Positions 3,101 through 32,081 of a stretch of 36,454 bases of DNA are shown in pieces (position 1 is the first letter of the stretch; the number at the start of each line of letters is the position of its first letter). Origin of the DNA: Thermodesulfovibrio sp. (lineage in GTDB: Bacteria; Nitrospirota; Thermodesulfovibrionia; UBA6902); the NCBI GenBank assembly GCA_026982355.1, contig JALSHG010000116.1, forward strand, positions 1-36,454, written 5' to 3'. The notes beneath the pieces were generated by a model. It saw only the letters and a list, made by a program, of their open reading frames with translations, did no database searches and was not told the origin of the DNA. The position numbers and the translations under genes are program-made.

Positions 3101-5573
3101 ATGCAGAATATTTTTCAATATCGCGGTGTTTATCAATCACTGGAAAAAGGGGATGCGGTCAAGCCTGGATTATCTGGAGAAGGGATACCAGGACGGATTC
3201 AGACGAGGCGACCTGCAGTTTGCATCATACAGCATCAACCATTACCAGATATTGTCGATACTTGCCGGAAAGAAACTCGATGATGTCGAGAGTTGTTTCG
3301 ACAGGCTGTACGGCCGGATGTTGAAGGCCAAACAGGAGGATGCCATACTGTGGTTCAGGATGTTCAGGGAGTTTCTCCTGAACCTGAAGGGCGGGCCTGA
3401 GAACAGGCTCAGGCTTGCCGGACGTGAATTCAGTGAAGACAATGTCCTGCATATCTGGGTCAGGGCGAATAACCTGACCACTTTGTCAGGTTTATATATC
3501 GTAAAGGCCATCCTGTGTTATCTCTACGGAGAGTATCGCGGCGCGCTTGACTGCTCAGTGAAGGCGAAGGAATATATCAAGGGCATAACGGGCATGGCCC
3601 TTGTGCCTGTGCACAATTTCTTTCATTCGCTTACACTGGCCGCGCTTTGCCGGGGTGCGCAGCAGCCTGAGCGGAACAACTATCTGGAGCAGATCAGCAA
3701 AAATCAGGAAACCATGTCCGTATGGGCTGAAAACTGCCCTGAAAACTACAGGTCCAAATACCTCCTTGTGGAGGCCGAGGTATCCGCGATTCTCGATCCC
3801 GGCACAGGTGAAGCTGAAAAGGCTTTTGACGAGGCCGTAAAGATCGCGGCCGGCAGTGAAAACCTCTTTGACCTGGCGCTTGCCAACGAACTGGCGGCCG
3901 TGTTCCGTCTGAACAACGCCGATAAGGAACAAGCCTCATATTACATGAACGAGGCATACAATACTTACAGGTTGTGGGGGGCGCACGGGAAGGCAAAAGA
4001 CCTTGAGGAAAGATATGCTCACCTGATGAAACCGCAGGTGGTTCATAATGCCTCCGCTGAAACAGCCTCCGCGCCGCATGAACTCCTGGACATAAACACT
4101 GTAATAAAGGCATCGCAGGCCATATCCGGCGAGATAAATCTGGATAAGCTGATAGCCAAGATGATGGGGATAATCATCGAGAACGCCGGTGCGCAGAAGG
4201 GATTTCTTGTGCTTGAAAAAAACGACGCACTCTATATAGAAGCCTCGGCTGATGTGGATTCGGACAAGATCGAGGTGTTGCAGGCTGTGCCGGTTGACAA
4301 CAGCCCCGACCTCTCGGAGGCGATTGTCCGCCAGGTATTCAGGACAGGTGACAACGTCCTGCTCAACAATGCCTCTGAAGAGGGCGTCTTTGTTTATGAC
4401 CCCTACATTGTCAGGAACATGCCGAGATCGATACTCTGCACGCCCATCCGTCACAAGGATCACATAATGGGCGTGCTGTACCTTGAGAACAACCTCGCCG
4501 CCGACGTGTTCACGGAAGACCGTATCGAACTGCTCAATGTCCTGCTCGCCCAGGCGGCCATTTCGCTTGACAACGCGAGACTGTTCGAGGAGCGCAAGAA
4601 ATCCGAGGAAGAGCTTGAGAGGCACCGTCTGCATCTTGAGGAGCTGGTGAGGGAGCGGACGAGGGAACTGGAGGCGAAGACGGAGAACCTGAAGAGGTCG
4701 GAGCAGACGCTCATATATCTTCTTGAGGATGTAAACGAGATCAGGGCGGATCTTGAGAGGGCCAACGAGAAGCTGAAGGAGCTTGACCGTCTGAAGTCGA
4801 TGTTCATAGCGTCGATGTCGCATGAGCTGAGGACGCCGCTTAATTCGATAATCGGGTTTACGGGGCTGGTGTTGCAGGGGATGGCCGGAGAGATCAACGA
4901 TGAGCAGAGGGATCAGCTGCAGAGGGTTTATGCGTCGGCGAAGCATCTTCTGCTGCTCATCACGGATGTGATAGACATATCGAAGATCGAGGTTGGGGAG
5001 ATCGAGGTGTTCGTGGAGGAGTTTTCGCTTGAGGAAGTTATTAATGATGCGGTATCGAGTCTGAGGACGCAGATAGATGACAAGGGTCTTGATGTGGAGG
5101 TGGATGTAGCGCCTGAGATTCGGCTGAGGACGGACAGCAGGAGGCTTTTGCAGTGCATACTGAACTATCTCAGCAATGCGGTGAAGTTTACGGAGGAGGG
5201 AGGGGTGCGCATAATGGCGCGGCGTGTCAAGGGTCCCGGGACCCGGGGGCTGGAGTCCGAGAAACCCGGGACGCGGAAGCCGCAGCCTGTAACGGAGGAT
5301 TTCGTGGAGATAGCCGTAACCGACACGGGGATAGGGATAAGGGAGGAAGAGCTGCCGAAGCTGTTCAATTCCTTTGTCAGGCTTGAGTCGCATTTAAAGA
5401 TCATAACGCCGGGCACGGGGCTGGGGCTTTACCTTACGAAAAAGCTCGCCACGGAGGTGCTGGGAGGCTCTGTATATGCAGAGAGCACATACGGAAAGGG
5501 CAGCACGTTTGTGCTCAGAATACCGGAGGAACTCGACCCCCTTCATCTGAAAGGTTTATCAAGCCTTGAATAG
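153..5573 (+). CDS. Multi-domain sensor: Ser/Thr (pseudo)kinase - AAA/STAND ATPase - GAF - histidine kinase
   Basis: The protein has 1806 residues if started at TTG 153. GTG 201 (residue 17) is the more likely start: AAGGG lies 6 nt before it and LTIPGYRVLE is how this family usually begins. A Ser/Thr-kinase-like domain spans about 18-290. It keeps the VVLK lysine (K52) and DFG (163-165), but the catalytic-loop HRD is HKN (142-144) and the loop Asn is also gone, suggesting a pseudokinase. An AAA/STAND ATPase follows, with Walker A GYPGIGKS (344-351) and Walker B LVLFLDD (about 469-475). Next come a long helical TPR-like region, a GAF domain (about 1315-1470), a coiled coil, HisKA with SMSHELRTPLN (His1557) and a HATPase_c domain. 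This architecture is known from cyanobacteria and deltaproteobacteria as a cytoplasmic multi-sensor kinase. No response regulator is nearby. The end overlaps ogt tail-to-tail by 31 bp. Confidence 0.9.
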   Translation: MRLINRHKSTGGKGLDVLTIPGYRVLEEIHEDSCSLYYRADRINDNLPVVLKILKKGLDRTSFTARYRHDLEISGSLHTGSIVTLHALEKAHGLPVLVLEDFGGIPVKKLIPETGLTMDEAIPLAAKAAGILGEIHHRNIIHKNISSSCFVFNRETGCLKISDFGISTVLIREAPAVTEVDITGSALAYISPEQTGRMNRSLDYRTDIYSLGVTLYEWFTGRLPFESEDPLELVHCHMAKQPAPPHQINASVPEAVSAVVMKLLSKAPEDRYQSALGLQADMEECRRQLQETGHIKWFSPGRFDISERLNITEKLYGRKREISFLLSAFDRASRGHMEILLVSGYPGIGKSALVNEVGKPIRLRKGYFISGKFDQLRKNIAYSAIVEAFRDLIRQLLGEDEQSLKRWREELLSVLAPNEGIIIDLIPEVKLILGSREPVHELGPLETRNRFNIVFLDFLKIFTRREHPLVLFLDDLQWADSASLELIELIAADNRANHFLLIGAYRSNEMDETHAAMAAMERIRKAGGSIHNITLPPLDMEDISHLIADTLNLEGDDVASLVDAVYRKTEGNPFFTKIFLHSLYDKKILHFSHDAGWQWDADEIKRMEATENVIRLMIDRINSLPGAAREMLKISSCLGNTFNLEYLVIITGKTREEILSDMQSVLTAGMVIMQSENSCRFVHDSIQEAAYSLIPGESKPAVHLMIGQALLNGTSEDELDRRLFVITEQLNAGHGLMESESDRVRLAELNLRAGKKSKSSAAFEESLRYLKTASAMLPGNSWDRHFRLTMDIYTERAEAEYLNTNFEAAEELFDIIIARTGDPVKKTRIYEIKIDLYTMQNKFPEAVYIGLKALEMLGVNLLKDPSPSLFIEEINKIRSSVGDTGIRELINLPVLTDPYRAAAMRILLHTWTPAYVGVAELAPILVAKMTSLSLEHGHTPASSLAYSCYGALLAGVLSDFDSAYEFGLLSRKLMDKFNAVDMKCRIFFNIAVFINHWKKGMRSSLDYLEKGYQDGFRRGDLQFASYSINHYQILSILAGKKLDDVESCFDRLYGRMLKAKQEDAILWFRMFREFLLNLKGGPENRLRLAGREFSEDNVLHIWVRANNLTTLSGLYIVKAILCYLYGEYRGALDCSVKAKEYIKGITGMALVPVHNFFHSLTLAALCRGAQQPERNNYLEQISKNQETMSVWAENCPENYRSKYLLVEAEVSAILDPGTGEAEKAFDEAVKIAAGSENLFDLALANELAAVFRLNNADKEQASYYMNEAYNTYRLWGAHGKAKDLEERYAHLMKPQVVHNASAETASAPHELLDINTVIKASQAISGEINLDKLIAKMMGIIIENAGAQKGFLVLEKNDALYIEASADVDSDKIEVLQAVPVDNSPDLSEAIVRQVFRTGDNVLLNNASEEGVFVYDPYIVRNMPRSILCTPIRHKDHIMGVLYLENNLAADVFTEDRIELLNVLLAQAAISLDNARLFEERKKSEEELERHRLHLEELVRERTRELEAKTENLKRSEQTLIYLLEDVNEIRADLERANEKLKELDRLKSMFIASMSHELRTPLNSIIGFTGLVLQGMAGEINDEQRDQLQRVYASAKHLLLLITDVIDISKIEVGEIEVFVEEFSLEEVINDAVSSLRTQIDDKGLDVEVDVAPEIRLRTDSRRLLQCILNYLSNAVKFTEEGGVRIMARRVKGPGTRGLESEKPGTRKPQPVTEDFVEIAVTDTGIGIREEELPKLFNSFVRLESHLKIITPGTGLGLYLTKKLATEVLGGSVYAESTYGKGSTFVLRIPEELDPLHLKGLSSLE

Positions 5574-8527: not shown

Positions 8528-9583
8528 TCAGCAGCAGCTTCCTCCAGCGTCACTCTCCTCCGGGGCACGTGCAGGCGTACAGGGAAACGGTCCATAGTGG
8601 ACCGCCCGGTCCCCCGAAACCTTGAAATGCCGCGCAAAACGGGTTTCGCTCAGCATCGAGGCCGTGTTGCCGCATACGAGTGCCGGCTTCCCGGTAATAA
8701 ACCTGTGGTGGTCATCAAGATCAAAGGCATGCGGACGTCCGGGAACGGTTCCGAGATAGACCGCTGTCTGCCCGTAATCCTCGCAGGCGTCTTCAAGGCT
8801 GTCCAGTTTAAAGGCGCGTATCGTCATGGTAAAAAAATCGATCATCCCCACCTTTGCCTCCACTTCCCGGTTCTCAATGGCAATCCTTTTGCCTGACACC
8901 ACCCGGTAGTCCGGACAACCGATATCCCTTAACAATCTCCTGAAGTCCCCTGTGTACATTGCGCCTCCAAGACATTCGGCGTGGAGCAGGGAATCATTCG
9001 TCAAGTGCTCCGGCACTCTCCTTCCTGAAAAAACATCGGAGAAGCAGAGTTCACCGCCCGGTTTCAGTATGCGGAAGATCTCCGAAAACACCGCTCTCTT
9101 GTCGGGAGAGAGATTGATGACACAATTTGATATCACCACATCGACCGAACAGTCTTCAATCCCGGCTGTTCCCAAATCTTCAATAAGCCCTCTCCTGAAG
9201 TCCACGTTCGGTTTTTCATAACCGAATCTCTTCATCTGTGCGTCAAGGTGTCTCCGTGCAATCTCAAGCTGTTCATGAGCCACGTCAACACCGATGACGA
9301 ACCCCTTCGGCCCTACAAGGCGGGATGTTACATACACATCCCGCCCGGCGCCGCATCCCAGGTCAAGAACCACACACCCCTCGACTGCATCGGGGATGGG
9401 AGATCCGCATCCGTAAACCCTTGTAAGGATTTCTTCATCAATATTTTTTTCTATGGCGCGGATATAGGGAGACAATGTCTCATCAGTGCACTTGCACGTA
9501 CTCGTCTTAAGGTCTGTTTTATCCCGCAATGTCTTGCCGTAATACTCTTTGACAAATTCCGTTTTTTCTGAAATATGTTTCAT
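8528..9583 (-). CDS. arsM: Arsenite S-adenosylmethionine methyltransferase
   Basis: ArsM transfers methyl groups from SAM to trivalent arsenic in the cytoplasm. From ATG 9583 (GGGGAAGA lies 5 nt before it) the protein has 351 residues. SAM motif I is VVLDLGCGAGRDVY (about 71-84). The four cysteines of characterised ArsM enzymes have counterparts: Cys30/32 (STCKC), Cys59 (YGCG), Cys154 (SNCVINL) and Cys204 (AECLGG). The C-terminus ends GGSCC, a vicinal cysteine tail common in this family. An in-frame codon at 9625 would add 14 residues but has no ribosome-binding site. It is the last gene of the leftward arsR1 set and is separated from the MerP-like gene by 319 bp of repeats. Confidence 0.92.
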   Translation of the reverse strand: MKHISEKTEFVKEYYGKTLRDKTDLKTSTCKCTDETLSPYIRAIEKNIDEEILTRVYGCGSPIPDAVEGCVVLDLGCGAGRDVYVTSRLVGPKGFVIGVDVAHEQLEIARRHLDAQMKRFGYEKPNVDFRRGLIEDLGTAGIEDCSVDVVISNCVINLSPDKRAVFSEIFRILKPGGELCFSDVFSGRRVPEHLTNDSLLHAECLGGAMYTGDFRRLLRDIGCPDYRVVSGKRIAIENREVEAKVGMIDFFTMTIRAFKLDSLEDACEDYGQTAVYLGTVPGRPHAFDLDDHHRFITGKPALVCGNTASMLSETRFARHFKVSGDRAVHYGPFPCTPARAPEESDAGGSCC

Positions 9584-9651
9584 GATATTCTTCCCCGAAA
9601 ATTTTCCCGTGGATTCACGATGCATACCGCATCTCGACCCTGCACGCCCAT

Positions 9652-9701
9652 CCTAACGGTTGCATAACATCCCGTACTTCTTTTTTATGCAACTGTTAAG
9701 G
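9652..9701. repeat. PIE element, 50-bp minimal palindrome
   Basis: CCTAACGGTTGCATAA and TTATGCAACTGTTAAGG flank a 17-nt centre, so the two ends alone form a near-perfect hairpin. It is the shortest palindromic relic of the family, upstream of arsM. Confidence 0.7.
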
Positions 9702-9722
9702 AAGGTTTCAATTGTTATATAA

Positions 9723-9855
9723 GAGGCTCTTGCAAAAGCCCTCCGTCCGTCACCTGCAGCGGAGAGAGATGTCTTATAACTCATCTGTACCAAAAGATTT
9801 TTCCCTCCGGTCGAAATGACATATACGGGCATTTTCATACTTTTGCGAAAGGCTC
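9723..9855. repeat. CTCTTGCAAAAG-ended interspersed repeat (copy 1)
   Basis: About 133 bp with inverted ends GAGGCTCTTGCAAAAG and CTTTTGCGAAAGGCTC. The interior is closely similar to 21271-21398 and 31739-31834 (for example CAAAAGATTTTTCCCTCCGGTCGAAATGAC, split by substitutions). Read on the minus strand it gives a peptide containing ISTGGKNLLV, the sort of spurious product often annotated from such repeats. I treat it as a non-autonomous repeat, not a gene. Confidence 0.7.
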
Positions 9856-9901
9856 AAAGGTTTTACGCCGGACTCTCCTGGCTGCTTATGCAACATTAAG
9901 G
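9856..9901 (-). repeat. PIE element, right half only, fused to the interspersed repeat
   Basis: AAGGTTTTACGCCGGACTC and TTATGCAACATTAAGG match the right half of full PIE copies. The left half is missing where the 9723-9855 repeat begins, as if one element had replaced or inserted into the other. Its CCTTAA end lies 1 nt from the stop codon of the MerP-like gene. With 9652-9855 it fills the 319-bp gap 9584-9902, where I see no other gene. Confidence 0.7.
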
Positions 9902-9902
9902 G

Positions 9903-10199
9903 TTATTCTTCCCTGTCTATTGTTGCCTTGAACGGTCCCGCCTTTTCCACCGCCTCAATGAGTGTGCTGTCCGCAACCGAACCCTCCACGATAACACGGG
10001 CCTTGTTATCTTTGCGGGACACTTCCACATCCCTGACACCTTTGATCTGTGTCAAAGACTTCCTGACCGCAATGGGGCAGAGTTCGGTGGACATCCCTTC
10101 TATATCCATCACCACGCTCCGCTCCGCCGCCTTTGCATGAACCGCGGTTCCGGCCACGATCAGCAAAGCCGCAAGCACAATCAGACTCTTTCTGAACAT
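9903..10199 (-). CDS. MerP-like periplasmic heavy-metal-associated (HMA) protein
   Basis: The 98-residue product starts at ATG 10199, chosen because AGGAGG lies 5 nt upstream. A signal peptide (about 1-25, FRKSLIVLAALLIVAGTAVHAKA) is followed by one ferredoxin-like HMA domain. MerP normally binds Hg(II) through GMTCxxC. Here the motif is GMSTELCPIAV, so the first cysteine is Thr and only Cys41 remains. It follows the MerT-like gene by 32 nt. No merA or merR is present and the neighbours are arsenic genes, so a thiophilic metal or metalloid ligand other than Hg(II) is possible. The specificity is inference. Confidence 0.75.
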   Translation of the reverse strand: MFRKSLIVLAALLIVAGTAVHAKAAERSVVMDIEGMSTELCPIAVRKSLTQIKGVRDVEVSRKDNKARVIVEGSVADSTLIEAVEKAGPFKATIDREE

Positions 10200-10231
10200 C
10201 ACAGCCTCCTGTTTTTGTTGCAATCCGGCAC

Positions 10232-10567
10232 CTATCCGTAGATCCAGATGACAACCTTCTGAAACGACACGGCAAAGACCAGCGTCACAACGGCCGCCCA
10301 GAATATTCCGCGCGCAATCCTTTGCGCCCGCGGGTCCTCAACACAGGCGCAATCCGGTTTTTTCAGGTACAGTTTCCAGAAAGAATACCCCAGCATCAAA
10401 AATGCCGCTCCCAGCAGGTACGGCTTCAACGGCATCAGGAACGACAGCTTTCCAAGAAATCCCGCCGATGCGCCGAAGACAATAAAGATCACCGGCCCGA
10501 TACATGAGGATGCCGCCAGAAGTGATGCCAGTATGGTTCCGAGACCCGATATGCTTTCCTTTTTCAT
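10232..10567 (-). CDS. MerT-like membrane transporter
   Basis: A 111-residue integral membrane protein with three predicted helices (about 8-30, 45-66, 86-108). MerT carries Hg(II) inward using a vicinal Cys pair in helix 1 and a second pair in the cytoplasmic loop. Here helix 1 has SSCIGP (a single Cys22) and the loop has PDCACVED (Cys73, Cys75). The gene order MerT then MerP on one transcript copies mercury operons, but the regulator upstream is ArsR-type. A hairpin in its leader (10587-10609) could sequester GGAGG. Confidence 0.75.
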   Translation of the reverse strand: MKKESISGLGTILASLLAASSCIGPVIFIVFGASAGFLGKLSFLMPLKPYLLGAAFLMLGYSFWKLYLKKPDCACVEDPRAQRIARGIFWAAVVTLVFAVSFQKVVIWIYG

Positions 10568-10586
10568 TCAAACCCCAATCCCCCTT

Positions 10587-10609
10587 CCTCCCATCATGCC
10601 AATGGGAGG
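10587..10609 (-). promoter_or_regulatory. Leader hairpin before the MerT-like gene
   Basis: CCTCCCAT and ATGGGAGG pair perfectly over 8 bp around a 7-nt loop, 20 nt upstream of the MerT-like start. On the mRNA the 3' arm contains GGAGG and the 5' arm is its complement. No T-run follows, so it is not a simple terminator. It may modulate translation or stabilise a processed end. Confidence 0.45.
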
Positions 10610-10622
10610 TGAGGGGATGCAT

Positions 10623-10654
10623 AAAAAACTACCTGGCGCCCACACCTTGGGCGC
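10623..10654 (-). terminator. Hairpin plus T6 at the end of the SUMF-fold gene
   Basis: On the minus strand GCGCCCA-AGGTG-TGGGCGC (10654-10636) is a perfect 7-bp GC-rich stem with a 5-nt loop. Seven nucleotides later TTTTTT (10628-10623) follows. The gap makes it an imperfect intrinsic terminator. The stem also lies inside the 12 codons that would follow the premature TGA of the SUMF-fold gene. Confidence 0.4.
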
Positions 10655-10667
10655 AGCGGAAGCTGAA

Positions 10668-11648
10668 TCAGTTGAAATGCGCCGCCTGGTCCACGTGCTC
10701 CTTGTTCGCCGTGCGCAGAAGCTCGGGGTGCTTGCTCCATGAACCTCCGCGGACGATCCGGTGTGTGCCGGTCTCAGGCCCCTCTGGATTTCTGTAAGGA
10801 CTGTTCTTGTAATAATTCACGTCATACCAGTCCGCTACCCACTCCCACTGGTTTCCTGCCATGTCCATCACACCATACGGGGAGGCGCCGTCCGGGAAGC
10901 TTCCGACAGGCGCGGCATACTCATAGCCGTCCAGCATGCCGTCGGCTCCCTTGCCGTAATTTGCGCGGATTTTCCCCCCGACATCCGGATATACATTGCC
11001 CCATGGGAATATCCTTGCATCCGTTCCCCTTGCGGCTTTCTCCCATTCCGCCTCTGTAGGCAGGCGCTTTCCGGCCCATTCGCAGTAAGCTGCAGCATCG
11101 TTCCAGCTCACCTGGGCCACCGGATAATCCCACAGGCCCTCATCCTCGACGCTGTACCACTTGCCTTTGTAATCCGCGCCGTTGGGATGAAGCCAGTTCA
11201 TGGAGCCGTCTTTTTTCGTAACACCTGTGATCTTGTAAAAGCCGGACCATATCCATGCAAGCGCCGTCTTCGTTTTCTCGGCGTCGGTTATATAACCTGT
11301 CTCCTGCACGAATTTTCTGAACCGGGCATTGGTTACTTCATACTTGTCGATATAATATGCGTCGAGATAAACCTTGTGCTGAGGCATCTCATCTGTGTAG
11401 AATTTCTCCCTGTCACACTGTATGCCCGGATTGTATTCCCTCGATTCCTCGCACATCCTCATGGCATCATCCGCATCCTTTTCAGTAGAGCCCATGAGGA
11501 ACTCACCGGCAGGGATCAGCACCATCTCGGCCCCGTCCCTGCCTGTAATGGTCAGCGGCAGGTCATCCGCCGCGGCAGGTGCACGGCTAACCGCAAACGC
11601 CGCCAGCGCCGCCAGTACAACAGCAAGCAGTCGCTTCTTTTTCATCAT
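10668..11648 (-). CDS. Secreted FGE/SUMF-fold (PvdO/EgtB-like) protein, in-frame TGA before the terminal FRC motif
   Basis: A 326-residue protein with a signal peptide (MMKKKRLLAVVLAALAAFAV...AAADD, about 1-29), so probably periplasmic. The FGE-sulfatase fold is clear: MVLIPAGEFLMGS, PQHKVYLDAYYIDKYEVTN, PVAQVSWNDAAAYCEWAGK, RLPTEAEWEKAARG, FPWGN, MAGNQWEWVADWY and VRGGSW. The residues aligning with the two formylglycine-generating cysteines are Leu and Lys, so sulfatase activation is unlikely. The reading frame stops at TGA 10670-10668, yet the next 12 codons read FSFRCAQGVGAR then TAG (10629), which is the usual C-terminal FRC block of the family. Of the two start codons (11648, 11645), the second has better spacing to GGGAGG. 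The function in the arsenic island is unknown. Confidence 0.85.
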   Translation of the reverse strand: MMKKKRLLAVVLAALAAFAVSRAPAAADDLPLTITGRDGAEMVLIPAGEFLMGSTEKDADDAMRMCEESREYNPGIQCDREKFYTDEMPQHKVYLDAYYIDKYEVTNARFRKFVQETGYITDAEKTKTALAWIWSGFYKITGVTKKDGSMNWLHPNGADYKGKWYSVEDEGLWDYPVAQVSWNDAAAYCEWAGKRLPTEAEWEKAARGTDARIFPWGNVYPDVGGKIRANYGKGADGMLDGYEYAAPVGSFPDGASPYGVMDMAGNQWEWVADWYDVNYYKNSPYRNPEGPETGTHRIVRGGSWSKHPELLRTANKEHVDQAAHFN

Positions 11649-12057
11649 TGCCTCCCTTCACGCTTGAATTTCCGGACTTCTTTTTTTTCTTTCTCCGGAT
11701 TAAATGCCCGCCGGCCTCGCCTCCCTTCATCCTGCGCAATCCTTCTTTATGGACGTCCTCGCGGGAGCGGATGACGACGGGATAGCTCCCGGATATAAAG
11801 CGGAACAGTTCCCTGACCAGCCGTGGACGGGTAAGATAGTAGCACCGCAGGGCGCCGTCTTCATAGAAATCCACCACCTCTATCCTTCTCAGGGCGGAGA
11901 GATGCTGCGATACATTGGACTGGCGGATCTCCAGCAGGTCCTGGATATCCGTCACACATTTGGCCCCCTTGGAAAGCTCGTGCATTATCATGAGACGCGT
12001 TGGATGGCTCAGCAGCTTGAGTATCTCGGCCTTCTTACGGTAATCGAGATCTTTCAT
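11587..12057 (-). CDS. arsR: ArsR-family repressor 1, with odd 3' extension over the next gene
   Basis: A 156-residue reading frame whose first ~100 residues are a winged-helix ArsR/SmtB repressor: LKLLSHPTRLMIMHEL, VTDIQDLLEIRQSNVSQHLSALRRIEVV, LRCYYL. The As(III)-site position has GAKCVTDI, with one Cys instead of the classical CxC. AAGGAG precedes ATG 12057. The last ~30 codons overlap the start of the SUMF-fold gene by 62 bp and translate its signal-peptide region in another frame, which is unlikely to be meaningful. Just before, A_AAA_AAG sits in frame (11686-11680). A -1 shift there would end at TGA overlapping the next ATG. It heads the leftward set arsR1-SUMF-merT-like-merP-like-arsM. 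Confidence 0.85.
   Translation of the reverse strand: MKDLDYRKKAEILKLLSHPTRLMIMHELSKGAKCVTDIQDLLEIRQSNVSQHLSALRRIEVVDFYEDGALRCYYLTRPRLVRELFRFISGSYPVVIRSREDVHKEGLRRMKGGEAGGHLIRRKKKKKSGNSSVKGGNDEKEATACCCTGGAGGVCG
11680..11686 (-). other. Slippery heptamer A_AAA_AAG in arsR1
   Basis: On the minus strand the zero-frame codons are AAA-AAA-AAG within a run of eight A, giving exactly A_AAA_AAG, the dnaX-type -1 frameshift signal. The upstream GGAG could be a stimulatory Shine-Dalgarno-like element, though its spacing is short. The -1 frame reads KEVRKFKREGRQ and ends at TGA 11649-11647, overlapping the first ATG of the next gene (11648). A homopolymer error in the sequence would look the same. Confidence 0.4.
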
Positions 12058-12119
12058 GATCGTTTCTCCTTTGCCGCTGCAGGCGGTGTTGTTCGTTTGG
12101 AGGAATCAGTATATTCCAG

Positions 12120-12156
12120 TATTCGAATATTACAATAAACAAGATGATTCCGTCAA
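12120..12156 (-). promoter_or_regulatory. arsR1 promoter with overlapping operator-like palindrome
   Basis: On the minus strand TTGACG (12156-12151), an 18-nt spacer and TAATAT (12132-12127) form a reasonable sigma-70 promoter about 70 bp before arsR1. The perfect palindrome TATTCGAATA (12120-12129) overlaps the -10 box and start-site region, where an ArsR-type repressor would block transcription. Confidence 0.6.
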
Positions 12157-12184: not shown

Positions 12185-12216
12185 TATAACATATAAATAA
12201 TTATTTATATGTTATA
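12185..12216. promoter_or_regulatory. 32-bp perfect palindrome, candidate ArsR operator
   Basis: The half-site TATAACATATAAATAA is followed immediately by its exact reverse complement TTATTTATATGTTATA. It lies between the two divergent ars promoters, just upstream of the arsR2 -35 box. Size and A/T-rich dyad symmetry resemble ArsR/SmtB operators. As RNA it would also be a long A/U hairpin. Confidence 0.6.
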
Positions 12217-12301: not shown

Positions 12302-12610
12302 ATGGAGAGGCTTTTACTGATCTTCAAGGCGTTATCGGAAGAGACGAGGCTGAAGATACTCGGGCTCCTCAGAAACGGGGAATTATGCGTCTGTGACATT
12401 ACCGCCGTCCTGAACATGACGCAACCAAACATATCATTTCATCTCGGCCTGCTTAAGGAGGCCGGCCTGATAAAGGACAGGCGGAACGGGCGGTGGATTC
12501 ATTACTCGCTGGACGAATCCGATATGTTTGTAAGATTCCTGCTGCTCGGGATATTTGAAAAAACCGGCGGCATGTCCGGCGTGAAGATCAAAAGGAAAAG
12601 AAAGTGCTGA
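12302..12610 (+). CDS. arsR: ArsR-family arsenite-responsive repressor 2
   Basis: A 102-residue winged-helix repressor: [16 protein letters not shown], then ELCVCDI with Cys29 and Cys31, the classical As(III)/Sb(III)-sensing site at the start of the DNA-recognition region, [18 protein letters not shown] and GRWIHYSL. It is the first gene of the rightward operon and 16 nt upstream of acr3. It probably represses its own promoter and may act at the 32-bp palindrome. The intact CxC suggests that this regulator, rather than arsR1, is the canonical arsenite sensor. Confidence 0.93.
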
Positions 12611-12626
12611 AGGACGCGGAAGGAAC

Positions 12627-13709
12627 ATGACTTCAGAACATGGCGCAAAGAATCTGTCTTTTCTGCATCGTTACCTGACCCTGTGGATTTTTCTTGCCAT
12701 GGCCGCGGGGGTGGGAGCCGGCTGCCTGTTACCCGGGGTGGAGCCGTTTATCAACTCCTTCCGGACGGGCACCACAAACATTCCCATCGCCATCGGGCTT
12801 ATACTCATGATGTACCCGCCGCTTGCCAGGGTGCGGTATGAAGAGCTCGGAGGGGTGTTTAAGGACAAAAAGGTTCTCGGCCTGTCACTGATCCAGAACT
12901 GGATAATCGGCCCGGCGCTCATGTTTTTTCTGGCTATCGTCTTTCTGCATAATTACCCTGAATACATGGCGGGGCTCATAATGATCGGGCTTGCGCGCTG
13001 CATCGCCATGGTGATTGTATGGAGCGACCTTGCGTGCGCCGATGCGGAATACACCGCAGGGCTTGTGGCCTTTAATTCAGTGTTCCAGGTTCTCTTTTAC
13101 TCTGTCTATGCATATGTCTTCATAACCGTCATGCCTGCATGGTTCGGCCTCAGGGGCGCGACAGTGGAGGTGACGATGGGACAGATTGCAGAGAGCGTGT
13201 TTATTTACCTCGGCATACCTTTTATCGCGGGGATAATCACTCGTTTCGCGATGATAAAAACCAGGGGTGTCTCCTGGTATGAACGGGTATTTATCCCGCG
13301 CATCAGTCCGCTCACCCTTATCGCCCTGCTTTTCACCATTGTCGTCATGTTTTCCCTTAAAGGCAATGTCATTGTGGATCTTCCGCTTGATGTGATCAGG
13401 GTAGCCGTGCCGCTTCTTGTTTATTTTGTGGCGATGTTTTTTGTATCATTTTACATGGCAATGAAACTGGGAACGGACTATCGGAAGTCCGCTTCCCTGT
13501 CGTTCACCGCCGCGAGTAATAATTTCGAGCTTGCCATTGCCGTGGCCGTGGCCGTTTTCGGAATAGATTCCGGCGCCGCTTTCACGGCTGTTATAGGCCC
13601 GCTGGTGGAAGTGCCCGTGTTGATCGGCCTGGTGAATGTTGCCCTGTATTTTCAGAAAAAGTCCTTTACGGCGCAGCATTGCCGTGTGAACGGAGTTGAT
13701 CCACTGTGA
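12627..13709 (+). CDS. acr3: Arsenite efflux permease Acr3
   Basis: A 360-residue inner-membrane carrier of the bile/arsenite/riboflavin transporter superfamily that exports As(OH)3/arsenite using the proton motive force. About ten hydrophobic helices are visible. The conserved cysteine is in [12 protein letters not shown] (Cys125, helix 4), and the conserved glutamate is in [11 protein letters not shown] near residue 327. The length is typical of bacterial Acr3. GGAAGG precedes ATG 12627. The stop overlaps the arsC start (TGATG), so efflux and reduction are translationally coupled. Confidence 0.95.
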
Positions 13710-14176
13710 TGAAAAAGAAAAAGGTGATGTTCCTGTGCACCGGCAACTCCTGCCGTTCCCAGATGGCCGAGGGGTTTGCAAGGAGATTCTGCAGGGGCCT
13801 GATTGAACCGTACAGCGCGGGGCTTGCGCCTGCCGGCGTTAATCCCAGGGCCGCGGCCGTCATGAAGGAAGCGGGCATTGACATATCGGGTCAGACATCA
13901 AAGGCGATTGACAGGGGCCTGCTCGTGCGTATGGATATTATCATAACCCTTTGCGGGCATGCAGAGGCGCTGTGCCCCGCAACGCCGCCGGGGATAAAAA
14001 GAATACACTGGCCCATTAAAGACCCTGTAGGCACCGTGGGCACGGAAGAAGAGATCATGGACGCATTCAGAGAGGTGCGGGATGAGATAAAAGAAAAGGT
14101 GAAGTCCCTTTGTGCAGGTATGGATGCTTCTCGGGATTCATACCGCGGACTCTTCCTGCCCGGTCTGCAACGTTAA
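13709..14176 (+). CDS. arsC: Arsenate reductase, thioredoxin-coupled (LMW-phosphatase type)
   Basis: A 155-residue cytoplasmic enzyme that reduces As(V) to As(III) for export by Acr3. The P-loop is CTGNSCRS with nucleophile Cys10 and Cys15. The redox relay cysteines are Cys82 and Cys89 in LCGHAEALC, exactly the numbering of the S. aureus pI258 family. DPVG (about 107-110) supplies the general acid Asp. ATG 13709 shares its A with the acr3 stop. A GTG one codon earlier is possible. The stop is only 3 bp from the end of convergent porB, so no separate terminator fits. Confidence 0.95.
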   Translation: MKKKKVMFLCTGNSCRSQMAEGFARRFCRGLIEPYSAGLAPAGVNPRAAAVMKEAGIDISGQTSKAIDRGLLVRMDIIITLCGHAEALCPATPPGIKRIHWPIKDPVGTVGTEEEIMDAFREVRDEIKEKVKSLCAGMDASRDSYRGLFLPGLQR

Positions 14177-19052: not shown

Positions 19053-19070
19053 GATAAATCGAAAAATAAA

Positions 19071-19160
19071 CCTTACAGCGGCATGGAAAACACCGCATGC
19101 CGGCAGGGGGAGCCGGAGGTTTTACGCCGGGCTTTCCTGCCGGCCTATGCCACATTAAGG
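19071..19160 (-). repeat. PIE element, 90 bp (TPR-rodZ junction)
   Basis: Plus-strand ends are CCTTACAGCGGCATGGAAAA and TATGCCACATTAAGG. The inner arms GGCAGGGGGAGCCGG and CCGGGCTTTCCTGCC pair with two mismatches around AGGTTTTACG. The CCTTAA end directly abuts the TAG of the TPR gene (0 nt) and the other end precedes rodZ. Confidence 0.85.
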
Positions 19161-20030
19161 CTAATACTTCAGACGTTCCATCAGTTCCAGGGCCTCCCCG
19201 CCCCTCCGGGTGTCCTTATCCTGTTCCGCCACTATGCTGAAATGTTTCAGCGCCCTGGCCTTGTCGCCCCTTCTCATGTAGATATTGGCAAGCTCCCAGT
19301 GTGCCTCCGTATAACCGGGCGCGATGCCTATCGCTTTTTTGAATGCATCTATTGCAGCCCCATCATCATGGAGCTTTACATAAACGAGGCCGAGGATATA
19401 AAGCGCGGACGGGAAAACAGGGTTCCTGAGCAGGGCCTCTTTCACGGCCTTTTCCGCATTCTTATAATCGCCTTTTTTGTAATAGGCGTATCCCATGTTG
19501 GAATATGCCCATGCTGGGGTCCGGTATACAGGGTTGTTCAGCGCCGCCTTAAAGCATTTGACGGCCTCATCCCAGTCGCCGGTCTCCACGTAAACCACGC
19601 CGAGATTGTTCAGCGCCTCGGAATAGTCCGGGTCTATTGATATGGCCTGTTTGTAATATTTTACGGCATCGTCGTATTTTTTATACCTGGCGCTTATGAA
19701 TCCGAGATAATTGTAGGACTCCTTGTTCCTGGGGTCCAGCCTGACTGCCTTCTGAAATTCCACGAACGCCTCGCTGAGCTGCCCTTCGTTCAGATAGGAA
19801 TTACCAAGCTTGACGTATGCCGCTGCCTGCATGACATCATCATAATCAGGCGTAGTGGCACATGCGGCAATGAACAGAAGAAGGGCGGACACGCAGCAGA
19901 AAACCATACGTCGTATAAGAAACACAGCAGCGCAGCCGTCCGACTGTTTAACGGGAAATGGGGAAGCGGCGGAATATTCGAATCCGGATGATTGATTGTC
20001 TGTGCATAAAAATCGACGATTCCAGGTCAA
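19161..20030 (-). CDS. TPR-repeat lipoprotein-like protein (PilF/NlpI-like)
   Basis: A 289-residue protein. TPR units are obvious from about residue 70 to the end (AAYVKLGNSYLNEGQLSEAF, SYNYLGFISARYKKYDDAV, ALNNLGVVYVETGDWDEAV, AYSNMGYAYYKKGDYKNAE, ALYILGLVYVKLHDDGAAI, AHWELANIYMRRGDKARAL). The start is uncertain. TTG 20030 has an excellent GGGAGG 7 nt upstream, but a lipoprotein signal with lipobox FIAAC would fit a start at ATG 19907, which has no ribosome-binding site. PilF-like pilotin and NlpI-like roles are alternatives. No pilus genes are nearby. It has its own promoter-like site upstream. Confidence 0.8.
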   Translation of the reverse strand: MTWNRRFLCTDNQSSGFEYSAASPFPVKQSDGCAAVFLIRRMVFCCVSALLLFIAACATTPDYDDVMQAAAYVKLGNSYLNEGQLSEAFVEFQKAVRLDPRNKESYNYLGFISARYKKYDDAVKYYKQAISIDPDYSEALNNLGVVYVETGDWDEAVKCFKAALNNPVYRTPAWAYSNMGYAYYKKGDYKNAEKAVKEALLRNPVFPSALYILGLVYVKLHDDGAAIDAFKKAIGIAPGYTEAHWELANIYMRRGDKARALKHFSIVAEQDKDTRRGGEALELMERLKY

Positions 20031-20173: not shown

Positions 20174-20262
20174 CCTTGCAGTTGCATGAAATACCGGCGG
20201 CGGAGCAGGGGAATCCGGAGGTTTTCCGGCAGACTCCCCTGCACGTTTATGCAATATCAAGG
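20174..20262 (-). repeat. PIE element, 89 bp (after cbiX/C)
   Basis: Plus-strand ends are CCTTGCAGTTGCATGAAA and TTATGCAATATCAAGG, with arms GCAGGGGAATCCGG and CCGGCAGACTCCCCTGC. It overlaps the 3' end of the cbiX/C gene: the last five residues (NLDIA) and the TAA stop are written by the element end. Confidence 0.85.
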
Positions 20263-21245
20263 TTAAGCAATGCATTGACTATGGCTGCTGCCACGGCCGA
20301 TCCTCCCTTTCTGCTCAGATTCGTTATAAACGGAAAGTCCTGTGCAGCAAGGAGGGACTTTGATTCCACCGCCCTGACAAATCCTACAGGAACGCCTATG
20401 ACAAGGGGGATGCCGCCGGGGCGGAAGGCATTGCCTGCATTCTTCAGTATATCTATCGTCTTCAGCAGGGCTGTCGGCGCATTTCCGATTGCAATAATGC
20501 CTATGTTGCCGTTTTCCTTCAGGGCATTCATGATTCCTCTCTCGGCCCTTGTCATGTCATCGGTATCCTGACTATTCAGTCCCTGATCCCGGATATTGCA
20601 TACAACCCTGCCGCCCCGCCTGTTCAGCAGTTTCTTGTTGATGCCTGCCCTGACCATCTCCACATCCGTGAGGATGTCCCTGCCGGCCCTTATCGCGGCT
20701 GTCCCTGTTCTGACAGCATCGGGATGAAATACAAGGCTGGTCTTGTATTCAAAGTCAGCAGTGGTATGGATGACGCGTTTGACAACCGGCAGCCTTTCAG
20801 CAGGCACATCGCCCAGGTCGATTTCATCCGAGATTATCTCAAAGCTCTTCTTTTCTATCTCACCGGGCGCTAAACCGGTTGCCGCCTCAATCCTTTCGAG
20901 CACCACCCGCGCTATCCTGTCGTGAACACCGAGGTGCGCCGTGCAGATGAATTCCACATCCGGGTACATGGCTTCAGCTTTCCTTATTATCGCAGGGATG
21001 TCCTTTGTTACGTGTGTGCCCCTGCTTAAGAAAAACGGATGCACAATCACCCTCTCAGCGCCTTCCCGCACGCAGGATGTGATCGCCTCCATCAGGTCCG
21101 GCCGTGCAAACCGGAGATAAGCCGCCTTTACACAACCGCCGCCGCATCCCGGGTGAATCATGCTGTGCAGAAGCCCTGCGGTATGCTCAATGCTGCCCGG
21201 GCCTTCCCCGGAACTGCCGTGTCCCGCGATAATAATCCTTTCCAT
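20247..21245 (-). CDS. cbiX-cbiC: Fused sirohydrochlorin cobaltochelatase (CbiX) - precorrin-8X methylmutase (CbiC)
   Basis: A 332-residue fusion of two steps of anaerobic corrin synthesis. Residues 1-125 are a short CbiX (IIIAGHGSS with the metal-chelating His, VIVHPFFLSRGTHVTKDIP with the second His), which inserts Co2+ into sirohydrochlorin. Residues 130-332 are CbiC (KRVIHTTADFEY with the catalytic His, VEMVRAGINK, GNAPTALL, PVGFVRAVESK), which moves the C-11 methyl to C-12 giving cobyrinic acid. The intermediate methylases (CbiE, T, F, G, H, J, L) are not in the window. GGAGAGAG precedes ATG 21245. The C-terminal codons are provided by a repeat element, see 20174. Confidence 0.92.
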   Translation of the reverse strand: MERIIIAGHGSSGEGPGSIEHTAGLLHSMIHPGCGGGCVKAAYLRFARPDLMEAITSCVREGAERVIVHPFFLSRGTHVTKDIPAIIRKAEAMYPDVEFICTAHLGVHDRIARVVLERIEAATGLAPGEIEKKSFEIISDEIDLGDVPAERLPVVKRVIHTTADFEYKTSLVFHPDAVRTGTAAIRAGRDILTDVEMVRAGINKKLLNRRGGRVVCNIRDQGLNSQDTDDMTRAERGIMNALKENGNIGIIAIGNAPTALLKTIDILKNAGNAFRPGGIPLVIGVPVGFVRAVESKSLLAAQDFPFITNLSRKGGSAVAAAIVNALLNLDIA

Positions 21246-21270
21246 CTCTCTCCTTTACCTTACACTTGGA

Positions 21271-21398
21271 GTCTCTTGCAAAAGTCCCCTGTCCGTCACC
21301 TCAAGCGGAGAGAGATCATATGATTCATCGATACCGAAAGATTTCTCCCTTCGTGTCGAAATGACATATACAAGCATTTTCATACTTTTGCAAGAGTC
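21271..21398. repeat. CTCTTGCAAAAG-ended interspersed repeat (copy 2)
   Basis: Perfect 12-bp inverted ends CTCTTGCAAAAG (21273) and CTTTTGCAAGAG (ending 21396), with an interior similar to 9723-9855. CCTTACACTTGGAG immediately to the left (about 21258) resembles a PIE left end, and a complete short PIE follows on the right, so the repeat may have entered a PIE. Confidence 0.75.
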
Positions 21399-21411
21399 TC
21401 TTGCAGCGACT

Positions 21412-21473
21412 CTTACAGCGGCATAAAAACACCGCCCGCCGGACTCTCCCGCCCGGCTTATGCAACATTTAAC
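21412..21473 (-). repeat. PIE element, about 60 bp (cbiA-cbiX/C junction)
   Basis: CTTACAGCGGCATAAAAACA at the left and CTTATGCAACATTTAACG at the right, with only one inner arm left. The cbiA TAA stop (21471-21469) lies inside the element end. Confidence 0.8.
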
Positions 21474-22815
21474 GATTGACAAAGCCGACAAATCTCTCCG
21501 CTATCCCTGGATTGCTCCCGAAATGTATGTGAATATAACTGCCGAGGGTGTTTTTGATCCTGTATCCCTCGTCATGGATGTATCTGCCTGATCCGTCCCT
21601 GACCGAATAACTCCGCGCGAGACCCGGGACAGGGGCTCCAGTGTTGTTTATTATCGTGGAATAGTGAAATTCATGCCCCCGGATAACAGCATCCTTTCCG
21701 CCCTGTATGCAGTCTTCCCTGAGTATCACCTCCCTGTAGCCGAGGCGGGCCCTGCGCCGTGTCATCTTTGTCTTAAATGGAAACACTCCGGCCATTGGAT
21801 AAAAAACACCGTCAGCGCCGTATATCCCCTGCGAGAGATACATGAATCCGCCGCATTCCGCATACACGGCCATGCCGCGTCCTGCAAAAGCGGCCACTGA
21901 CTCTATCATGGATTTATTCCCTGAAAGTTCCTTTGCATAAAGCTCGGGGTAGCCGCCTCCTATATAGAGGGCGTCAACATCCGGGGGAACAGCGGTGTCG
22001 GACATGGGGCTGAATGATACGATCTCAGCGCCCGCCTGTCTGAGCAGATCAAGGTTGTCTTCGTAGTAAAAGCAGAAGGCCCTGTCGCGCGCCACCGCAA
22101 TCCTGGCCCTCGGTGACGGGACCGGGCGGCCCCGTGCCGTCAAGTCCTCCTTTTCCCCGCGGGAGCGGGCGGGGGTGAGCATTGCGTCCACATCAATATG
22201 TTGCAGAACCGCATCCGCCAGTTTATCCACGTCTTCGGATGAAAAAGGCCTTTCCTCCGCCACGACCAGCCCGAGGTGCCTGTGCGGAATCTCAACACCA
22301 GGATTCTTCGGCAGACAGCCCAGGACCGCAACATCCCTGACACTGTCCCTGACCCTCTCATAATGCCTCTCCGAGGCAACACGGTTGAATATGACGCCCC
22401 TTATGCCGGGATGGGGCGCCAATGAGGCAAATCCATTCACAACAGCGCCCGCACTCTCGGCCATTCCAAAGGCATCGACAACAAGGACCACCGGCAGGCC
22501 GAGGGCAGCCGCGAGGTCTGCGGTGCTGAGATTGCCGTCATAGAGCCCCATCACCCCTTCGACAACCGCTGCATCGGCGCCGGCCGAGTTCCTGCGGAAA
22601 CATTCGGCCACGTACTCCCCGCCGCACATCCACAGGTCGAGGTTTCTCGACGGCCTCCCGGTGATAAGCCCGTGCAGCCCTGTATCTATAAAGTCGGGCC
22701 CTGCCTTGAAGGGCTGCACCGTGCAGCCCTTTTTTGCCAGGGCGGCGAGTATTCCGAGTGTGACGGTTGTCTTGCCGCATCCGCTGTGCGTCCCTGCGAT
22801 AACTATACCCTGCAT
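21469..22815 (-). CDS. cbiA: Cobyrinate a,c-diamide synthase
   Basis: A 448-residue ATP- and glutamine-dependent amidase that amidates the a and c side chains of cobyrinate. It has an N-terminal P-loop (IAGTHSGCGKTTVTLGIL), the dethiobiotin-synthase-like domain with VVEGVMGLYDG, and a C-terminal triad-type glutaminase with nucleophile Cys in AVYAECGGFMYL and the later RGHEFHYS. ATG 22815 has GAGGAG 7 nt upstream. A start five codons earlier is not supported. It is flanked by PIE copies on both sides. Confidence 0.95.
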   Translation of the reverse strand: MQGIVIAGTHSGCGKTTVTLGILAALAKKGCTVQPFKAGPDFIDTGLHGLITGRPSRNLDLWMCGGEYVAECFRRNSAGADAAVVEGVMGLYDGNLSTADLAAALGLPVVLVVDAFGMAESAGAVVNGFASLAPHPGIRGVIFNRVASERHYERVRDSVRDVAVLGCLPKNPGVEIPHRHLGLVVAEERPFSSEDVDKLADAVLQHIDVDAMLTPARSRGEKEDLTARGRPVPSPRARIAVARDRAFCFYYEDNLDLLRQAGAEIVSFSPMSDTAVPPDVDALYIGGGYPELYAKELSGNKSMIESVAAFAGRGMAVYAECGGFMYLSQGIYGADGVFYPMAGVFPFKTKMTRRRARLGYREVILREDCIQGGKDAVIRGHEFHYSTIINNTGAPVPGLARSYSVRDGSGRYIHDEGYRIKNTLGSYIHIHFGSNPGIAERFVGFVNR

Positions 22816-22838
22816 GCAATCTCCTCGCAACAGTTCAA

Positions 22839-22879
22839 CCTTACGGTTGCATAAAATACCGGCTCATGCAACATTAAGG
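22839..22879 (-). repeat. PIE element, 41-bp minimal copy (cobD-cbiA junction)
   Basis: Only the ends remain: CCTTACGGTTGCATAAAA and TCATGCAACATTAAGG around a few bases. The cobD stop is written by it (CCT-TAA, residue Pro then stop). Confidence 0.85.
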
Positions 22880-23920
22880 TTTACTCAACATCGAGAGCAG
22901 GACTTCATTGTCCCTGCGCGACTTGACGGCGACCCTCATGTATGAGCCGTCCAGCCCTTTGAAATTCGAACAATCCCTGAGCAGAACGCCTTTCCGCCTC
23001 AGGGCGCCGACCATGCCGGAGGCGTTATCCGTCCTCAGCAGATAATAGTTGGCTGCGGACGGGAAAAACTCTATCCCCGCCTCCCGGAAACCGTTCTCAA
23101 GAAACCTCTTCTCTTTCTCCATCAGCCGCATTGTCCCATGTGCATAGGCGCTGTCACGAAGCGCTGCAATGGCGGCCTTCTGTGCCAGGCTGTTGACGGT
23201 CCACGGCTCCTTGTATTCCCTGATACGCGGCATTAAATCCGCATGAAAGACACCGTAGCCGATTCTCAGGCCGGCGAGGGCGTAAAACTTCGTCATGGAT
23301 CTCAGCACCGCAAGATACGGATTCTCCCGTACATGCCTGATCACGGACGCACCGGGGCAGAAGTCGATAAACGCCTCATCAACGACAAGCAGGCACTTCA
23401 TCTCCCGGGCCGCCCCGGCAATCCGCAGCACCTCGGTTCCGGCCAGCAGGTGCCCCGTGGGATTGTTCGGATTGCACAGAAAGGCCATATCACAGCCCTC
23501 CATGGCCCTGATGAATTCCGCGGGGTCAACGGCAAATCCATGCTCAACCCGCAATTCATGGCCCGCGACCCGCGACCCGCAACCTGCAACCGCCCGCTCA
23601 TACTCTGAAAAAGACGGACGGGGTACCATGACCTTATGCGGTTTAAGCGCCCTTGGAACGAGATAAATAAGCTCCGTGCTTCCATTGCCGCAGAGTATGC
23701 TTTCGGGGTCAACGCCGTAATGGCGGGCTATCTCATGCCTGAGCAGTGTTGTATCAGGATCAGGGTAGTTCACGAGGCTGTCCAGGGCCTCCGCGATTGC
23801 CTCCTTCGCCCTCCCGGGAACACCGAGGGGGTTTACCGATGCGCTGAAATCGACAAGGTCCCGTTCCGGGATCCCGCTCTCTTCAGCAACGCTGTAGATA
23901 TTTCCGCCGTGCGTTTCCAT
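22874..23920 (-). CDS. cobD: L-threonine-O-3-phosphate decarboxylase-type aminotransferase
   Basis: A 348-residue PLP enzyme of the HisC/CobD family. It decarboxylates threonine phosphate to (R)-1-aminopropan-2-ol phosphate, the linker attached by CbiB. VDFSASVNPLGVP is the CobD signature, LCNPNNPTG and LVVDEAF(I)DF bind the cofactor, and SMTKFYALAGLRIGYG holds the Schiff-base Lys. HisC (histidinol-phosphate aminotransferase) is the alternative, but context favours CobD. Between about residues 128 and 142 a short GSRVAGHELRVEHG stretch is encoded by repeats of (A)CCCGCGACCCGCA and looks inserted. From ATG 23920, TAAGG supplied by the PIE element lies 10 nt upstream and there is no other ribosome-binding site. 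Confidence 0.92.
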   Translation of the reverse strand: METHGGNIYSVAEESGIPERDLVDFSASVNPLGVPGRAKEAIAEALDSLVNYPDPDTTLLRHEIARHYGVDPESILCGNGSTELIYLVPRALKPHKVMVPRPSFSEYERAVAGCGSRVAGHELRVEHGFAVDPAEFIRAMEGCDMAFLCNPNNPTGHLLAGTEVLRIAGAAREMKCLLVVDEAFIDFCPGASVIRHVRENPYLAVLRSMTKFYALAGLRIGYGVFHADLMPRIREYKEPWTVNSLAQKAAIAALRDSAYAHGTMRLMEKEKRFLENGFREAGIEFFPSAANYYLLRTDNASGMVGALRRKGVLLRDCSNFKGLDGSYMRVAVKSRRDNEVLLSMLSKP

Positions 23921-23928
23921 GGTGTTAA

Positions 23929-23979
23929 CCTTACAGCGGCATAAAAATGCCGCCCCTGCCGGCTTGTGCAACATTAAGG
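23929..23979 (-). repeat. PIE element, 51 bp (upstream of cobD)
   Basis: CCTTACAGCGGCATAAAAAT and TTGTGCAACATTAAGG. On the minus strand its CTGTAAGG end precedes the cobD ATG, and its CCTTAA end directly abuts a TAA (23982-23980). Confidence 0.85.
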
Positions 23980-24072
23980 TTAAGTGTAAAGCAGTAATGA
24001 CAGTTCAGCGCCGCCCCTCCCCATGCCCCTCTCGCGCCTGGGGGTAAAGTCATCAGGGCGGAGGTGAACCAT
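23980..24072 (-). CDS. Possible 30-residue ORF, or relic of a lost gene end
   Basis: ATG 24072 to TAA 23980 encodes MVHLRPDDFTPRRERG and 14 further residues, ending LSLLLYT. No good Shine-Dalgarno sequence and no family is recognised. It is mentioned because its TAA directly abuts a PIE end, as the stop codons of real genes do elsewhere in this unit. The Pro/Arg-rich part also resembles common G/C-rich intergenic repeats, so it may be non-coding. It is the only content I see between cbiB and the element. Confidence 0.2.
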   Translation of the reverse strand: MVHLRPDDFTPRRERGMGRGGAELSLLLYT

Positions 24073-24082
24073 GAATATCCGC

Positions 24083-26922: not shown

Positions 26923-26930
26923 GAAATTAA

Positions 26931-27019
26931 TCTTACAGCGGCATAAAAACACCGCCTGCGGGCAGGAGAGTCCGGAGGTTTTACGCCGGACCCTCCTGCC
27001 GGCTTGTGCAATATTAAGG
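26931..27019 (-). repeat. PIE element, 88-bp reference copy (cobC-cbiP junction)
   Basis: Plus-strand ends are CTTACAGCGGCATAAAAACA and TTGTGCAATATTAAGG. The inner stem GGCAGGAGAGTCCGG pairs with CCGGACCCTCCTGCC (one mismatch) around AGGTTTTACG. The CCTTAA end directly abuts the TAA of cobC (0 nt). The other end reaches to within 9 nt of the cbiP ATG and supplies TGTAAGA as a weak ribosome-binding site. Confidence 0.9.
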
Positions 27020-28389: not shown

Positions 28390-28402
28390 GTCTTGAGGTG
28401 AA

Positions 28403-28494
28403 CCTTACAGTTGCATAAAATACCGCCGGCGGTGCAGAGGAGTGTGTGGCAGGTTTTCCGGCGGACTCCCCTGCATGTTCATGCAATATTAAGA
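28403..28494 (-). repeat. PIE element, 92 bp (cobT-cobS junction)
   Basis: CCTTACAGTTGCATAAAATA and TCATGCAATATTAAGA. The arms (GCAGAGGAGTGTGTGGC and CCGGCGGACTCCCCTGC) pair less well than in other copies. The CTTAA end starts 1-2 nt after the cobT TAA. Confidence 0.85.
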
Positions 28495-28495
28495 T

Positions 28496-29584: not shown

Positions 29585-29612
29585 AATCTTCCTCTCCTTT
29601 TGAACTTTCAAT

Positions 29613-31664: not shown

Positions 31665-31738
31665 TGAACATTTTACAATTTTACCCTGCCGGAAAGAAAG
31701 CCTTGGTTTTTAAAATCATCCGGGTTGGGGTATACTAA

Positions 31739-31834
31739 GCGGAGAGAGAGGTCTTATAACGCATCGATACCAAAAGATTTCTCCCTGCGGTCGAAATGAC
31801 ATACGCAGGCATTTTTACACCTTTGAAGGGGCCT
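31739..31834. repeat. CTCTTGCAAAAG-type interspersed repeat, partial (copy 3)
   Basis: Starting at GCGGAGAGAG the sequence follows copies 1 and 2 (GTCTTATAAC, CCAAAAGATTTCTCCC, GGTCGAAATGACATA) but lacks the left inverted end and has a degenerate right end. As at 9723 and 21271, a PIE element follows within about 10 bp. Confidence 0.7.
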
Positions 31835-31844
31835 GGATAATATA

Positions 31845-32058: not shown

Positions 32059-32081
32059 CATATTATAGGGAAAACGCAGGT

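Follow-up and report, generated by a model that had tools for sequence, protein, structure and literature searches.

We analyzed a 36,454-nt stretch of DNA (hereafter, the window), which is contig C116 of a Thermodesulfovibrio sp. genome, G000 (2.6 Mb in 119 contigs, estimated to be 100% complete), and which carries genes resembling the mercury transport genes merT and merP opposite an arsenic-resistance operon. On the minus strand, the leftward set is headed by arsR1 (11590–12057), encoding an ArsR/SmtB repressor. It continues with a gene for a secreted protein of the SUMF/formylglycine-generating enzyme (FGE) fold with a signal peptide (10671–11648; PF03781, E 1.9e-59), a merT-like gene for a MerT family protein with three transmembrane (TM) helices (10235–10567; PF02411, E 8.6e-16), a merP-like gene for a signal peptide plus HMA domain (9906–10199; PF00403, E 1.4e-9) and, beyond a gap of ~277 bp, the arsenite methyltransferase gene arsM (8531–9625, start possibly at 9583). 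Divergent from these, on the plus strand, is an operon (12302–14176) of arsR2, an As(III)-type ArsR with the motif GELCVCD (12302–12610), acr3, an arsenite efflux pump (12627–13709; TIGR00832, E 5.8e-135, 449.8 bits), and arsC, a thioredoxin-type arsenate reductase (13706–14176; TIGR02691, 170.7 bits against a curated cut-off of 174.3). The arsR-acr3-arsC set is thus complete and canonical, and the same operon is found in another species of the genus, G001; what sets the window apart from such operons in general is the divergent unit beside it, with an ArsR and a probable operator of its own. Two palindromes between the divergent genes, both at least partly conserved in G001, suggest that the two regulators probably have separate operators: AGTATTCGAATATT (12118–12131), which lies over the arsR1 promoter region and is conserved in G001, is the probable ArsR1 operator, and the perfect 32-bp palindrome TATAACATATAAATAATTATTTATATGTTATA (12185–12216) upstream of arsR2, with its 20-bp core kept in G001, is the probable ArsR2 operator.

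A sequence-only reading of this DNA had described all the leftward genes as one ArsR-led set opposite arsR-acr3-arsC. The genes and their order are as described, but the membership of arsM in the leftward operon is unproven because the gap beyond merP is filled with interspersed repeats (9682–9901, with copies at 19.1, 20.2, 21.3, 27.0, 28.4, 31.8, and 35.7 kb). Short interspersed-repeat families occupy many intergenic gaps of G000, interrupting operon spacing, and G001 has them too; the window copies lie at 9723–9901, 19065–19189, 20174–20264, 21269–21442, 26926–27045, 28403–28496, 31737–32066, and 35621–35710.

The MerT-like and MerP-like proteins have each lost one cysteine of their metal-binding pair, as the earlier reading had noticed. 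The first TM helix of the window MerT reads SSCIGP where its relatives have SCC(I/V)GP, and the MerP motif is GMSTELC (TxxC) where relatives have GMxCxxC or GMxCxxU. Both changes are common to G000 and G001, leaving neither the vicinal cysteine pair of MerT nor the CxxC of MerP in either species. All other full-length MerT proteins of the clade described below (9/9) have SCC in helix 1, and the first motif position is cysteine in the other MerP proteins of the clade (7/7) and threonine in both genus members. The CxC of the MerT cytoplasmic loop is present throughout the clade, window included.

The MerP relatives include a further variant of the motif. The genes of G098, G168, and G169 have an in-frame TGA at the second motif position (GMxCEL-U-PLAI), and, because clear selenocysteine tRNAs (tRNA-Sec) accompany it in G098 and G168, these CxxU proteins are very probably selenoproteins; a hairpin is predicted 3′ of the TGA in two of the three genes. 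They belong to family f16 and lie downstream of merA (L064:5183–5455(−), L139:6445–6720(+), L140:530–805(−)). The cysteine kept by the window MerP is at exactly the selenocysteine position of these relatives; no tRNA-Sec over the cut-off was detected in G000 or G001, and the window protein is without selenocysteine. Its match to TIGR02052 (E 1e-11) falls under the family cut-off, as does its best NCBIfam match, NF041115 (51.4 bits against a curated cut-off of 95). Compared with NF041115 (UxxU metal-binding (seleno)protein) and NF045683 (MerT/CopZ selenoprotein), the relatives of the window MerP share the UGA at the second position, whereas the window MerP itself scores under the cut-off and has no selenocysteine.

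The wider phylogeny places the pair within a lineage of mercury genes. Of 230 genomes from the class, 12 carry the MerT clade, a count that includes the window and one fragment; full-length relatives show 56–95% identity. In a tree, the clade separates from the canonical MerT of the same class with 100/100 support and long branches. A plasmid search returned no MerT more than 60% identical (36% was the best among the matches listed), and among 396 genomes sampled from the phylum, the sole further match was one at 43% adjoining a MerR-like gene. The other clade members sit in genuine mer operons: MerR-thioredoxin-MerT-MerP-MerF-MerA in G117, MerR-MerT-MerP-MerA-...-MerB in G137, MerT-MerA in G133, G098, G168, G169, and G172, and MerT-MerP-MerR in G006. 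The MerA of G117, G098, and G137 exceeds the TIGR02053 cut-off. The window MerT is nested among these members, which indicates that the pair is derived from mercury operons and was not invented independently. With these class-restricted operons (MerT 56–69% identical) it shares the short CxC loop and the same transporter unit, but they keep SCC and CxxC or CxxU with MerA adjoining, and the window does not. With the mer operons of the Tn21/Tn501 type it shares the Pfam MerT and HMA/MerP families, the merT-merP gene order, and the pairing of a periplasmic chaperone with a three-TM importer bearing two cysteines on its cytoplasmic loop; it differs in SSC rather than CC in TM1, in TxxC rather than CxxC in MerP, and in having no merA or merR, and its MerT is just ~30–36% identical to canonical MerT. 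Fragmentary MerT and MerP genes also adjoin an ArsR-FeoB operon in Nitrospirae bacterium HyVt-268 (L066:516–774(+)).

The window has neither merA nor merR, and no MerA over the TIGR02053 cut-off was found in G000 or G001, in agreement with the earlier reading. One candidate in G000, split over contigs C96 and C10, was rejected: its two parts score 255 and 175 bits, both under the cut-off of 454, and the profile match ends at position 451 of 465, short of the MerA tail. Its scores are like those of the dihydrolipoyl-dehydrogenase-like proteins that most relatives have. Of the two regulator types of mer operons, MerR and ArsR, the set has only ArsR1.

These losses bear on whether the pair could still serve mercury, passing Hg(II) or organomercury, under ArsR control, to a different reductase or to an enzyme that methylates it, or simply binding it. 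Organomercury needs one thiolate only, and one cysteine remains at each site with the loop CxC intact. Besides the MerT/MerP family membership itself, precedents exist for the arrangement: ArsR occurs in 22 of 272 (8.1%) surveyed mer operons, all of them chosen by merA (PMC3466566), merT2-merP2 clusters without an adjoining merA have been described on a plasmid carrying another merA (PMC3737084), and hgcAB is under ArsR regulation that responds to arsenic, which ties ArsR and arsenic to mercury methylation (PMC10349881). In the Hg(II) relay, however, the metal passes from MerP Cys33/Cys36 to MerT Cys24/Cys25, then to Cys76/Cys82 and MerA, and the Cys24/25 pair required for transport (PMC5715351) is the one broken here. 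Moreover, the described task of Mer importers is to take up Hg(II) that MerA or MerB then transforms (PMC4570782), and MerA over the cut-off is missing from both species (hgcA was not searched for). Mercury hypersensitivity from cloned mer fragments is the subject of Nakahara et al. (1979), going by its entry in the reference list of PMC4570782. On balance, we regard a continuing mercury function as rather unlikely.

Comparison with G001 shows which parts of the locus are kept. There, arsR1, merT, and merP are contiguous at ~90% DNA identity to the window; the ArsR1 ortholog is 92% identical and adjoins merT, and 48 bp take the place of the ~1.1 kb that holds the SUMF gene in the window. Neither SUMF nor ArsM is present at the G001 locus. 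Two G001 contigs, C277 and C239, which between them carry arsR1-merT-merP and arsR2-acr3-arsC, share an exact 91-bp end, the signature expected where an assembler has broken a single locus, from which we infer that they join and that the back-to-back arrangement is conserved. Co-occurrence beyond the window, which the sequence-only reading had proposed as a check, is therefore seen for arsR1-merT-merP opposite arsR2-acr3-arsC and fails for SUMF and ArsM.

The conserved genes are maintained by purifying selection. Between G000 and G001, the ratio of nonsynonymous to synonymous substitution rates (dN/dS) is 0.12 for merT, 0.19 for merP, 0.11 for arsR1, and 0.04 for arsR2; merT has 18 changes, of which 5 are nonsynonymous (~13 expected), and under a simple binomial test neither merT (p 4e-5) nor merP (p 1e-4) fits neutrality. 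These values, the intact reading frames and ribosome-binding sites of the window merT and merP, and the conservation of arsR1 with its probable operator all speak against the pair being the remains of a mer operon in decay since the loss of merA. Such decay would account for the fragmentary MerT and MerP of G017, the frame change after about residue 90 at the end of the G001 merP, the lack of any MerT match in G002 (a further genome of the genus, 88% complete), and the repeats and rearrangements that surround the locus. We consider it an unlikely explanation for the pair.

The SUMF protein aligns with FGE structures at E 1e-44 and shares the fold family and a signal peptide with the SUMF1/FGE superfamily (PF03781; FGE, PvdO, EgtB-like, GldK). 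As had been noted from the sequence, it lacks the FGE catalytic cysteines: K306 and L311 replace human Cys336 and Cys341 in the alignment, the segment GGSWSKHPELLR contains no cysteine, and Cys66 and Cys78 lie in the N-terminal segment instead. Across about 85,000 species scanned, the subfamily turned up at just three further loci, in Bacterium BMS3Bbin08 and Nitrospirae bacterium HyVt-268, where the orthologs are ~80% identical; no Mer or Ars genes stand beside them. These named relatives come from the family and order of the window genome, and on that basis its host is regarded as Nitrospirota-type. Where upstream sequence exists, these orthologs follow a cysteine-free ArsR3 and an 89-aa FeoC-like winged-helix protein (the BMS3Bbin08 contig ends within the winged-helix gene). 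Elsewhere in the class, the ArsR3-winged-helix pair accompanies other cargo, and G001 has it directly downstream of merP. Instances across the class include L034:8085–8899(−), L118:4374–5222(−), L156, and L161–L164, with cargo that varies among SUMF, an ArsM-like methyltransferase without the catalytic cysteine, ABC-type binding proteins, and a ~390-aa zinc-ribbon protein resembling DUF5714. With a dN/dS of about 0.05, the SUMF gene is strongly constrained. Taken together, the comparisons indicate that the gene was recently inserted between arsR1 and merT and travels with ArsR-type loci as a passenger, mobile although constrained. It is missing from G001 and occurs at three unrelated loci elsewhere, which rules it out as a conserved partner. 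The class also has SUMF proteins of moderate similarity (38–48%), which were set aside because their neighbors (cytochromes, YebC, NtrC-type regulators) are unrelated and include no metal genes, and an AlphaFold2 model built from three sequences was discarded (mean predicted local distance difference test score, pLDDT, 34.7).

In an alignment with 5EVJ, an arsenite methyltransferase of solved structure (E 2.2e-108), ArsM has each of the four conserved cysteines. It is common in the family with changing neighbors, and on this variability it was rejected as an operon partner. G133 and G169 each have, 1 to 3 kb away from merT/merA, an ArsM fusion with a radical-SAM/DUF3641 (ArsS-like) domain in front (L062:4272–6356 and L139:1–1923).

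These results bear on the proposal, made from the sequence alone, that ArsR1, SUMF, MerT, MerP, and ArsM form a single periplasmic arsenic system. The common strand and order in the window, the strong constraint on SUMF, its position behind ArsR-type regulators at every locus with upstream sequence, and the ArsM fusions near merT/merA in two genomes would all suit such a system. Against it stand the absence of both SUMF and ArsM from the G001 locus, SUMF orthologs that elsewhere have none of MerT, MerP, and ArsM beside them, and the repeat-filled gap and varying neighbors of arsM. We therefore think it very unlikely, and the five genes cannot be upheld as one unit. In the literature searched, no paper brings together MerT/MerP, a formylglycine-generating protein, and arsenic, and none describes a MerT/MerP unit with altered cysteines and no merA next to acr3/arsC; the claim that no such system had been described stands to that extent, but ArsR-led mer genes as such were already known.

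The nature of the signal sensed by ArsR1 is relevant to a further alternative, that the pair handles some other soft species (Cu(I), Ag(I), sulfane sulfur, or selenium) and that ArsR1 senses sulfur or redox state. ArsR1 has two cysteines, Cys34 (GAKCVTD) and Cys71 (LRCYYL), and its best solved relative is PDB 6O8K–6O8O, which we take to be the persulfide sensor SqrR. A paralog heads DsrE-like, sulfide-quinone-reductase-like, and YeeE-like genes at L128:1505–4743(−), and similar ArsR proteins occur in most genomes of the class. The CxxU selenoproteins among the MerP relatives also favor this view. Set against these indirect points are a histidine in ArsR1 at one of the SqrR sensing cysteine positions and the arsenic-resistance setting in both species, and we judge the idea improbable. 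The 3′ tail of arsR1 overlaps the SUMF start by 62 bp in a different frame; this odd tail was probably altered by the SUMF insertion.

Elsewhere in the window, a cobalamin biosynthesis cluster lies at 20247–29611 (CbiC/CbiX, CobB/CobQ, aminotransferase, CbiB, CobS, CobT). An exact 104-bp direct repeat links the contig start (1–104) to the end of a large kinase/AAA/GAF/histidine-kinase gene (5412–5515) and is possibly an assembly end effect.

We tentatively favor, at somewhat less than even confidence, a re-specified transport unit: a mer-derived merT-merP pair would have lost merA and merR, passed under the control of an ArsR-family repressor, and been retained beside arsR-acr3-arsC in one genus. 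One thiol is left per pair, the MerT cysteine of SSC (in addition to the loop CxC) and the MerP cysteine of TxxC, and because each protein keeps only one thiol of its pair, the two-thiol hand-off of Hg(II) is probably disabled. The selection data argue that the importer was kept after merA was lost, and a disabled Hg(II) hand-off would be expected if it was retained for another task. Sites with a single thiol are suited to species coordinated only once, such as methylated arsenic or methylmercury, or to a different metalloid. The most likely cargo of the relay would be a species held by one thiolate, or else a different thiophilic metalloid (e.g., As(III), free or methylated), carried inward to be exported or methylated. 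The SUMF gene would be a later insertion in the window's species and not part of the core. The suggestion of the sequence-only reading that specificity had shifted away from Hg(II) agrees with the cysteine losses, the lack of merA and merR, the recurring acr3/arsC neighborhood, and purifying selection. A narrower version, in which the pair would be an ArsR-controlled importer of a singly thiol-bound organometalloid (e.g., dimethylarsenite or methylmercury) working with Acr3 and ArsM, we hold to be unlikely; if true, it would be a periplasmic capture route of a kind not described for arsenic.

Several points weigh against re-specification. Any substrate of the pair, arsenic included, is deduced indirectly, and MerT is by family an importer, and arsenic import beside an exporter is not obviously useful. 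Loss of merA does not by itself explain the cysteine changes, since G006 (MerT-MerP-MerR), which has no MerA over the cut-off, keeps all cysteines. ArsR1 may sense something other than arsenic because it lacks the ELCVCD arsenite motif and is paralogous to the class-wide ArsR at the DsrE/YeeE-like sulfur cluster. The frame change in the G001 merP and the missing MerT match in G002 count on this side as well.

The clade presents three states of one relay: CC/CxxC with MerA, CC/CxxU with MerA, and SC/TxxC without MerA beside arsenic genes. It thus offers a natural experiment on the metal specificity of a two-thiol relay, in which the role of each ligand is testable in one protein background. It also means that merT and merP matches in genomes or metagenomes do not alone imply mercury resistance.

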